From: Rhodopseudomonas sp.
GTDB lineage: Bacteria > Pseudomonadota > Alphaproteobacteria > Rhizobiales > Xanthobacteraceae
Direction of reading: 5' to 3'
Assembly: GCF_013377015.1 (NCBI RefSeq)
Contig: NZ_JACABA010000001.1
Location: 269,554-333,553 of the forward strand
DNA: 64,000 nucleotides
The position numbers were made by a program, and so were the translations under genes. The notes beneath the pieces were generated by a model, which was not told the DNA's origin, did not search any database, and worked only from the letters and a program-made list of their open reading frames with translations. Positions 43,984-46,612 of this stretch are shown here, piece after piece (position 1 is the first letter of the stretch; every line of letters starts with the position of its first letter).

Positions 43984-44757
43984 ATGAAACCAGTTCCGTT
44001 TGCCACAGCTGCCAAAATCGCAATCTGCGCTTTGTTCATGCTGGCGCACGCCCAGTTAGCACGGTGCGCAGAGGTCACGGTCATGAGCGTTCTGCCACTC
44101 AAGCCATTTCTGAATGAACTAGGCCCCCAATTCGAGCGTGCAACGGGCAACAAACTAACGATCAAGTACGATGTATCTGCCTCATTGAAACGGCAAATTG
44201 ATGCCGGCGACACGTTCGATGTGGCCGTGCTACTGCCGGCCCTCATCGACGATCTGCTCAAACAAGGCAAAGTCGCCGTAGGTACAAGGGTGGACGTCTC
44301 TCGTGCGGCCGTCGCCGTGGCGGTTAAGAAGGGCGCACCGAAGCCCGATATCGGTTCGACCGAAACTCTCAAGAAAACGCTGCTCAACGCCAAATCGATC
44401 GCCTATTCGAGCGAAGGCGGAAGCGGAACCTATTTCAAAGGTCTGATCGAACGCCTTGGCATCGCCGCAGAAGTTAGCGAAAAGCTCAAGCCGCTGGCAT
44501 CCAGTGCGGTGGTGCCATCTGTTGCAAAGGGCGAAGTGGAGCTCGCGGTGATCTCGCCGCCCGCCATTCTTGCGGATCCCGGCGTTGAATTGGTCGGCCT
44601 CATGCCGAAAGAGTTGCAGCAATACGTCGTCTACACCGCAGGCGTCAGCGCTGCTGCCAGGGAAGCAGAAGCAGCCAAAGCACTGCTCAAGTATCTCACC
44701 ACTCCGGCCGCCCTGATAGTAATGAAGGCCAAAGGCTTAGAACCCGTCGAACCGTAA
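43984..44757 (+). CDS. ModA-like molybdate/anion ABC transporter substrate-binding protein
   Basis: AEVTVMSVLPLKPFLNELGPQFERATGNKLTIKYDVSASLKRQIDAGDTFDVAVLLPALIDDLLKQGKVAVGTRVDVSRAAVAVAVKKGAPKPDI...; PBP type II, no modBC alongside. Confidence 0.85.
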   Translation: MKPVPFATAAKIAICALFMLAHAQLARCAEVTVMSVLPLKPFLNELGPQFERATGNKLTIKYDVSASLKRQIDAGDTFDVAVLLPALIDDLLKQGKVAVGTRVDVSRAAVAVAVKKGAPKPDIGSTETLKKTLLNAKSIAYSSEGGSGTYFKGLIERLGIAAEVSEKLKPLASSAVVPSVAKGEVELAVISPPAILADPGVELVGLMPKELQQYVVYTAGVSAAAREAEAAKALLKYLTTPAALIVMKAKGLEPVEP

Positions 44758-44884: not shown

Positions 44885-44914
44885 TTGACAACCTCGCCAA
44901 CATAGGACTATATT
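44885..44914 (+). promoter_or_regulatory. near-consensus sigma-70 promoter
   Basis: TTGACA (44885-44890), 18-bp spacer, TATATT (44909-44914); predicted start at or near A44921. Confidence 0.6.
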
Positions 44915-44919
44915 CCGCT

Positions 44920-45395
44920 CATCCCGCCTCACACGAGGGGCGGCTCGCGATCGTCACGGACGCGGGGCGGGATGCGGTGGCCGGCATGCGGCGTTCGAAC
45001 TGCCGGGGTGTGAAAAGCGCCCCGGATGACGACCTCGCCAAGGCCGGACGGTGGAAGGCGTGGACAGTCCCGGTGCGGTTGCCCCGCACCAGATGAGGTC
45101 GGGTCGGCCCCCGCGATCGCTCCCTCGGGAGAAGGTCGTGGCGGCGGTAAGCGTGAACCCGGCAAACGGCGGTAACCCGGAGCGACCGCCGGGGGCGCCA
45201 CGCAATACACCGTTCCTCCACCGCGCGCGGAACGCCGGATGATTCCGGCGCAACCGTGGTGACTACGCTCGTGTGCTTTTCACTTTGCACACGGGGCCGC
45301 GGGTGCATCGGGCACCCGGCGTTCCGCGCGCCCTCTTCTCCGAAGGGGGCACGGGACTCAAGCAAACCCCGGGCGCTTTGCGCCGCGGGATCGCG
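44920..45395 (+). ncRNA. candidate large structured RNA / dispersed noncoding element (3' boundary uncertain)
   Basis: No supportable ORF. Perfect stems include CATCCCGCC/GGCGGGATG (44920-44928/44966-44974), 45003-45025, GGTGCGG/CCGCACC (45072-45090), CGGCGGT/ACCGCCG (45167-45191), CGCCGGA/TCCGGCG (45233-45250), CGTGTGC/GCACACG (45270-45293), GGGTGC/GCACCC (45301-45317), long-range GCGCGCGGAACGCC/GGCGTTCCGCGCGC (45223-45236/45318-45331), GGCGC/GCGCC (45372-45384). Consensus-like promoter directly upstream. Confidence 0.5.
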
Positions 45396-45492
45396 AAGCC
45401 GTGGCTGTTTGATAGTCGAATCGGAATGCGAGTTGAGGAGCGGATGCTGCTCTGCACCCGGCAGCGAGGCACCAGCGCCCCTCCACACACAC

Positions 45493-45595
45493 CGTCATCG
45501 CCCGGTTTGACCCGGCGACCCAGTATTCCAAAGTGACAGCGATCAAATCACAAGCGCTCTGCAATACTGGTTCCCCGCTTTCGCGGGGATGACAG
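45493..45595. repeat. intergenic inverted repeat (family B)
   Basis: cgtcatcgcccggtttgacccggcgaCCCAGTATTcc ... gcAATACTGGttCCCCGCtttcGCGGGGatgaca; nested inverted repeats. Confidence 0.75.
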
Positions 45596-45709
45596 TGGTG
45601 AGAGATCGAGCCCGGCAATGACGACGGACGACATCAATGCCACCGTATCCGTCGCCGCTTGCTCGCCGAGCGAAAACGGCCAGCGCGACGCTCCCGGCGA
45701 CGCGCGCGC

Positions 45710-46612
45710 TTACTGCGCCGGCCGTCGCCGCGGCGCCGGCTGTTCGGCGCGCGGTCCCGGAGCGGCGGCTCTGGCAGGCGCCTGGGCCGGCTCCTGCGCC
45801 GTCGCATTGCTCGGCCCGAACAGGATGCGGGTCGGGTTCTTGTCGAGATTGTTGACCGCGCGGCTGATGTCGCCAAGGGTCTTGCGGCCGTCCATGATCA
45901 ACGTCGCGGCGCGCTTGTCGAGATTGTCGGCCAGTTCGCGGAACGACTTCACCGCCTGGAACAGCTCGCCGCCGTCCTTGCCGCCGGCCAGCGCGTCGAT
46001 GCCCTGCATGACGCTGTCGGTCTTCGCCATCACGCCGTCGACCCTGGCCATGATGCTGTCGATCTTGTCCGAGCTGCGCGCCAGACTTCCGGTGAAGGTC
46101 TGTAGGTTCTGCAGCGACGACTTCACCGTATCCTCGTTTTCGGCGACCATCCGGTTGACGTTCTTCAGCGTCGCCTTGATCGACTCGGAAATGTCCTGCA
46201 GCGAATTCGGATCGGCGGTCAGCACCGGCACGCCGTCCTCGTCCAGCGGAACCGGCGGGGCGGTCTCGAGCCCGCCCTTCAGCGAGATCGCCGCCACGCC
46301 GGTCAGGCCCTGGAACTCCAGGCCGACCAGGGTATCCTTGCGGATCGGGGCGGTGTTTTCCACCATCGCCAGCGCCACCACCCGGCGCGGATTGTCGAGC
46401 TTCACCGAGGTGACTTCGCCGACCCGGACGCCGTTGAAATTGACGCTGCCGCCGTTGCGCAGGCCGGACGCCGCGCCTTCGAACACGATGCGCAGCGGGC
46501 TGCGCAGCTTGGTGGTGTGCAGGCTCTGGAACCAGAGCACAAATCCGAACGCCGCCGCGATCACCGCGAGCGTGAACGTGCCGATCAGAAAGTAGTTCGC
46601 CCGCGTTTCCAT
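45710..46612 (-). CDS. MlaD/MCE-domain lipid transport protein
   Basis: METRANYFLIGTFTLAVIAAAFGFVLWFQSLHTTKLRSPLRIVFEGAASGLRNGGSVNFNGVRVGEVTSVKLDNPRRV...KDTLVGLEFQGLTGVAAISLKGG. Confidence 0.93.
   Translation of the reverse strand: METRANYFLIGTFTLAVIAAAFGFVLWFQSLHTTKLRSPLRIVFEGAASGLRNGGSVNFNGVRVGEVTSVKLDNPRRVVALAMVENTAPIRKDTLVGLEFQGLTGVAAISLKGGLETAPPVPLDEDGVPVLTADPNSLQDISESIKATLKNVNRMVAENEDTVKSSLQNLQTFTGSLARSSDKIDSIMARVDGVMAKTDSVMQGIDALAGGKDGGELFQAVKSFRELADNLDKRAATLIMDGRKTLGDISRAVNNLDKNPTRILFGPSNATAQEPAQAPARAAAPGPRAEQPAPRRRPAQ

Follow-up and report, generated by a model that had tools for sequence, protein, structure and literature searches.

A putative gene family for a structured noncoding RNA of about 500 nt, dispersed in Rhodopseudomonas and its relatives

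What lies between the gene for a ModA-like solute-binding protein (SBP_bac_11; 43984..44757, +) and the convergent gene for MlaD (45710..46612, -) in the 64,000-nt stretch of a Rhodopseudomonas genome analyzed here (hereinafter the window)? The original prediction, made from this sequence, was of a large structured noncoding RNA, or alternatively a dispersed element, with its own sigma-70 promoter and no credible reading frame, extending over 44885-45395. We find that both halves of that proposal are supported: the promoter is conserved in position across copies and the fold covaries, and the unit is multi-copy, with six full copies in the window genome. On the strength of the comparisons presented below, the segment is likely to be the gene for an independently transcribed, trans-acting, folded noncoding RNA of ~500 nt that belongs to a dispersed multigene family. 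It would represent a previously undescribed RNA family, with members of about 450-690 bases and no match in Rfam.

The window copy begins with a sigma-70-type promoter (44885..44914, +) exactly where it had been predicted, comprising a -35 TTGACA (44885-44890), an 18-nt spacer and a -10 TATATT (44909-44914), with a predicted +1 at ~44921. The perfect 9-bp stem proposed to follow is equally in place, as CATCCCGCC at 44920-44928 is the exact reverse complement of GGCGGGATG at 44966-44974. Together, the promoter and 5' stem of this copy exceed chance level. The folding energy of the 497-nt segment is -286.3 kcal/mol (z = -6.2), which none of 100 dinucleotide shuffles equals. The 5' domain (44920..44974, +) consists of the P1 helix (44920-44930/44964-44974) around a hairpin (44940-44950/44954-44963), and holds the most conserved block of the element, GAGGGGCG..TCGCGATCGTCACG. 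Next comes the long-range P2 helix GGTGG/CCACC (44976..45222, +; 44976-44980/45218-45222), 88-99% paired across 67 copies, which encloses a variable multibranch middle domain (44982..45213, +). This domain, whose anchor-to-anchor length ranges from 165 to 408 nt among copies, is the least conserved part of the window copy; it contains conserved inner helices (45048-45052/45209-45213, 45058-45063/45198-45203, 45068-45071/45192-45195 and 45072-45077/45085-45090, +) and a helix at 44982-44994/45035-45046 that is partly broken in this copy. The 3' domain (45223..45331, +), the basis of our covariance model R1, is closed by the 14-bp P3 helix (45223-45236/45318-45331) and carries inner hairpins at 45237-45239/45244-45246, 45268-45276/45287-45295 and 45301-45306/45312-45317 (+). 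Thereafter follow the P4 hairpin CCCTCT...GGGG (45332..45347, +), weak in the window copy, a 3' hairpin CCCGGGCGC-TTT-GCGCCGCGGG (45368..45389, +), and a conserved tail, GCTGTTTGATAGTCGAATC (45404..45422, +), common to this family (alpha) and the sister family described below (beta), which marks the approximate 3' end of the unit. The proposed end at 45395 falls short, the unit running on to this tail. A separate repeat of ~100 bp, with dozens of copies in four relatives, is situated directly downstream of the element at 45483-45604.

Is the fold itself under selection? A sequence-only alignment of 67 non-redundant copies was analyzed with a covariation script of our own, similar to but not identical with R-scape, using tree-simulated nulls. 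Structures derived from half of the genera and evaluated in the remaining half showed significant covariation at 10 of 118 and 6 of 127 pairs, against 0.05 expected. This less gappy train/test design superseded a test over all column pairs, gappy columns included, which was underpowered because its null tail was too long. In the 3' (P3) domain, 92.8% of the cells in the 67 copies pair, and double-change cells number 129 as opposed to 45 in shuffles, with none of 500 shuffles reaching the observed value. Two pairs of the GGGTGC/GCACCC hairpin swap almost evenly (GC 34/AU 32 and UA 38/CG 26), and the covariation signal of the 3' domain is lost on shifting the partner by 1-3 columns; the pairing initially offered for this hairpin by RNAalifold is wrong by covariation. 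The 5' stem is 88-100% paired in the 67 non-redundant copies. In the GCGGAACGCC/GGCGTTCCGC stem, for which compensatory changes had been predicted, a C-G pair has become G-C in 10 of the 67 copies, and another position displays four pair types. Covariation across homologs, the absence of which had been named as grounds for abandoning the RNA, is present.

The paired columns contain 846 G-U and 199 A-C cells, an excess of G-U which indicates that the RNA corresponds to the + strand. A feature acting at the level of DNA, such as a palindromic repeat with a role in chromosome organization or recombination, would account for the long perfect palindromes, and might account for a bias in orientation: the copies that point away from the record start, in both halves, number 30 of 37 in genome G394, 13 of 17 in G024 and 13 of 21 in G122, which suggests co-orientation with replication if these records start near the origin. 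However, a DNA palindrome leaves both the G-U excess and the conservation of the promoter unexplained, and local GC skew gave no signal of replication co-orientation, so that we regard this explanation as very improbable. The possibility that the segment is coding sequence, intact or degenerate, draws on long GC-rich open frames on both strands, the longest slightly exceeding those of shuffles (109 versus 92 aa, sd 28). It is already contradicted, to the point of being negligible, by the compensatory nature of the changes in helices and by the spacing of conserved anchors, whose distances modulo 3 are uniform across 84 elements (30/27/27 and 29/28/27), implying that no reading frame is kept. 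Arg/Pro-rich hypothetical proteins are called over the element in Bradyrhizobium, spurious calls which it may explain.

To what extent does the element bring its own promoter? Our set comprises 84 full elements, which measure 438-691 nt with their promoters according to profile coordinates, and the background consists of 6384 windows drawn from the same loci. TTGAC with a -10 matching at four or more of six positions, correctly spaced and just upstream of P1, occurs in 60 of the 84 elements versus 11 of the 6384 background windows; with a -10 matching at five or more of six, the count is 56 of 84, these being the copies near consensus, versus 0 of 6384. The 24 copies outside the 60, mostly Bradyrhizobium-type, have different upstream sequences as candidate promoters. 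These fall mostly into three classes, one Bradyrhizobium-type and the others TTATCCCC...TTATCAT and AATCCCCGC...CTTATG, each common to the members of its group; a few are degenerate sigma-70-like sequences. A promoter palindrome, TAGGA-N-TCCTA, was considered as a regulon marker and set aside, as its 18 matches in 7 genomes included at least five element promoters by position and no clear other target.

These promoters bear on whether the element might instead act in cis, as a leader, 3'UTR stabilizer or REP-like terminator for a neighboring transcript. In favor of this, the first gene downstream runs in the same direction as the element in 57 of 82 cases, an over-representation, and all group A copies precede an SLT_2 gene. 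Nevertheless, in the remaining 25 of 82 that gene is convergent, as it is in the window, where the element is hence not the leader of a gene, the co-directional upstream gene likewise lying outside it. The neighbors moreover differ between most copies, and the element possesses both a promoter and a tail of its own; a cis-acting role thus appears quite improbable.

The relatives that the original prediction proposed in Bradyrhizobium and Rhodopseudomonas genomes do exist: Bradyrhizobium-type copies carry GCGCAGGGAA...TTCCCTGCGC and GCGGGTGCA...GCACCCGG. Of 150 family genomes searched at the DNA level, 59, spanning 23 of 47 genera, contain relatives, a lower bound since BLAST misses divergent copies. 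Among the matches listed, those with names come mostly from Bradyrhizobium and also from Rhodopseudomonas, Tardiphaga and Afipia, with a few contigs labeled otherwise. By the 3'-domain covariance model, for which genome counts depend on the candidate filter and E-values are rough, three complete genomes of Bradyrhizobium type (the name given here to genus g24 from its sequence) have 37, 21 and 17 copies, and other genomes 2-6. The window genome gives eight rows with this model, two of them on the opposite strand of the palindromic domain, and the sole genome of the same genus in the set has at least three copies. The window copy itself scores 131 bits (E = 2.4e-24) against R1, a match by construction as it is one of the 67 source sequences; it displays the R1 match, the 5' domain and the tail in order, the combination that defines the alpha family. 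R1 also matched two genomes from another family of the order, and one of these matches (L378) is a full element in which P1 and P3 are kept through compensatory change. Six contigs of genome G141 (C6, C9, C11, C15, C19 and C20) end inside element copies, indicating that near-identical copies break the assembly, a type of break which the element may explain; the true copy number is probably higher than counted. A plasmid collection yielded nothing, and 50,697 annotated phage records no match. Among 2.9 million viral contigs, exact patterns matched three, and the tail pattern gave 77 matches, a figure that says little for want of a control.

How have the copies come to be where they are? Copies occupy common loci across genera: beside an SLT_2 gene in eight genomes of five genera and beside mlaD in three, the window's own locus being shared with G001 and G141. 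Several pairs of copies, moreover, have both flanks conserved. Judging by their sequences, in which group E bodies are 84-89% identical, some of these loci are vertically inherited. Synteny on the side of GroEL (group B) was discarded as a shared locus because GroEL is well conserved, often multi-copy, and ~1.3-2.9 kb away. Some paralogs within a genome have bodies that are 93-98% identical behind unrelated promoters, and at some loci the body is closer to a same-genome paralog (up to 96-98%) than to its syntenic copy (60-74%). This similarity begins near the predicted +1 and stops near the tail, with unrelated flanks on either side; in the L023/L024 pair, which has different promoter classes, downstream similarity extends ~130 bp beyond the tail. 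Among the testable copies, the closer relative is a paralog for 19 and the syntenic copy for 14, with one tie, a count that takes in the group B copies with their weak synteny; homogenization by concerted evolution is thus partial. Among Bradyrhizobium-type species, many sites that carry a copy in one have no detectable copy in others. Further, at L267:2010-2066 of G001, orthologous to the C23 copy of G000, a class-2 promoter and CATCCCGCCCC are joined directly to GAATCCGACTTGTG, so that the promoter and the tail end are kept and the body is missing. Together, the variable occupancy and this body-less locus imply frequent gain and loss. Directly beside the tail hairpin in L267, L303, L305, L312 and L327 there is a palindromic repeat of the GTCCCGGGCGCG type, as if attracted.

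Such turnover gives the main rival explanation its force, namely that the element is a selfish, non-autonomous mobile repeat that brings the cell no benefit and uses its structure and promoter to propagate itself, either transposing as DNA or having its RNA reverse transcribed. It would be consistent with up to 37 copies in a genome, with sites filled in one Bradyrhizobium-type species and empty in others, with the G001 locus that keeps its promoter but not the body, with the breaking of G141 contigs inside near-identical copies, and with a homogenized block that in several pairs begins close to the predicted +1. Yet neither a transposase nor a reverse transcriptase was found in association with it, nor was a target duplication: the window locus has no transposase, the empty or emptied sites compared display no clean junction or duplication, and an insertion sequence or intron that would explain the segment, as the original prediction had allowed for, was likewise not found. 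Furthermore, several loci are common to different genera, the promoters are kept though they lie outside the homogenized block, the fold is retained over deep divergence, and the element is absent from the plasmids and annotated phages searched. A selfish repeat hence accounts for the turnover, but not for the shared loci or for the promoters beyond the homogenized block, and we judge it an unlikely, if still the strongest, alternative to a trans-acting RNA gene.

A second family came to light through the tail. Exact matches to GCTGTTTGA...AATC numbered 10 in one genome and 7 in another, with a reversed-pattern control near 0. Some belong to elements that share promoter, 5' stem, 3' hairpin and tail with alpha but differ from it in the body; these elements we term beta (L304, L306, L308, L309, L312 and L268, in G000 and G001; body core CACTTGTTAGTTGGCTGGACGCGG...CCCCGGAAGCACGG). 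A supposed 5'-truncated copy in G000 (C1:150609) turned out to be a beta copy. Beta is present in 55 of 150 family genomes and 24 of 47 genera, with up to 8 copies. Its consensus fold repeats the helix order of alpha: P1, long-range P2, multibranch middle, P3, P4, 3' hairpin and tail; 56 of its 125 pairs have two or more double changes, a count made without a null. Alpha copies align over their full length with an iterated beta profile, a result to which the common promoter and tail may contribute, and the two families are, on these sequence comparisons, probably homologous.

Do these RNAs resemble anything known? At gathering score the window has no match in Rfam 15, which covers among others OLE, ROOL, GOLLD, HEARO, group I/II introns, tmRNA, RNase P and 6S; as the original prediction would have it, nothing exceeds chance, the only matches at E<=5 being chance ones to miRNAs. 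Twelve diverse copies likewise gave 0 matches, and beta copies only sub-threshold chance matches, which miss the core or lie on the opposite strand. The element shares with OLE, ROOL and GOLLD (PMC12286853) a large size (~500-800 nt), an elaborate covariation-supported fold, noncoding character and a largely unknown function, and with GOLLD a division into one well and one poorly conserved region, but there is no sequence or covariance-model match to any of them. ROOL and GOLLD are known from phages and prophages near tRNAs (PMC12286853), whereas the element is chromosomal, with 2-37 copies per genome and a promoter per copy, in relatives of Bradyrhizobium. The best reading of the comparison is that it may work in the manner of OLE, ROOL and GOLLD while being a member of none. 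Br-REP1 and Br-REP2 (PMC5082802) are, like it, intergenic structured repeats of Bradyrhizobium and Rhodopseudomonas, but are palindromes of 20-40 nt in 3'UTRs with ~50-200 copies, and neither a promoter nor a 500-nt architecture is described for them; their quoted consensus was not seen in the element in a comparison by eye, and Br-REP2 is stated, with data not shown, to belong to a larger repeat that is not specified (PMC5082802). The same lineage has noncoding transcripts in B. japonicum, BjsR1-BjsR10 (PMC5082802) and BjrC68/BjrC174 (PMC4842269), some in 2-4 imperfect copies; these are described as small RNAs, and no Rfam model matched the 12 element copies. Finally, multigene families of the rRNA type also have several loci with their own promoters and partly homogenized bodies, but are unrelated in sequence, and the element is less completely homogenized and far more variable in copy number. 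No description of the element was found in the open-access literature searched.

We accordingly return to the RNA gene as the preferred reading. RNA polymerase would start near 44921, and the transcript would fold into P1, the P2-closed variable multibranch domain, P3 and P4, ending near 45422. The stable RNA might then act in trans as a folded molecule, either providing a scaffold for a protein or assembling with itself, and its variable middle would be a tolerated or specialized module. Gene conversion or duplication may keep the copies partly alike, and gene dosage may raise the amount of RNA. More speculatively, and with considerable doubt on our part, the alpha and beta superfamily could constitute an RNA-only or RNP particle, its genes behaving as a second fast-evolving multigene family of stable RNAs with numerous chromosomal copies, a strong promoter for each, homogenized bodies and a cargo-like variable middle. 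Few bacterial RNAs of such size and complexity are known, most of them without a function. As a multi-copy member of an agriculturally central and genetically tractable group, the element offers a test bed for the evolution of large RNAs by gene conversion and for the role of multi-copy RNAs.

Two further observations concern the neighborhoods of individual copies. In L113 and L387 of G122, what appears by eye to be the same IS110-like transposase is encoded a few hundred bases downstream of two copies. At L020:5960-6772, just upstream of the second C1 copy, there is a gene for a predicted pPIWI-associating nuclease (PF18165), possibly part of a defense system.
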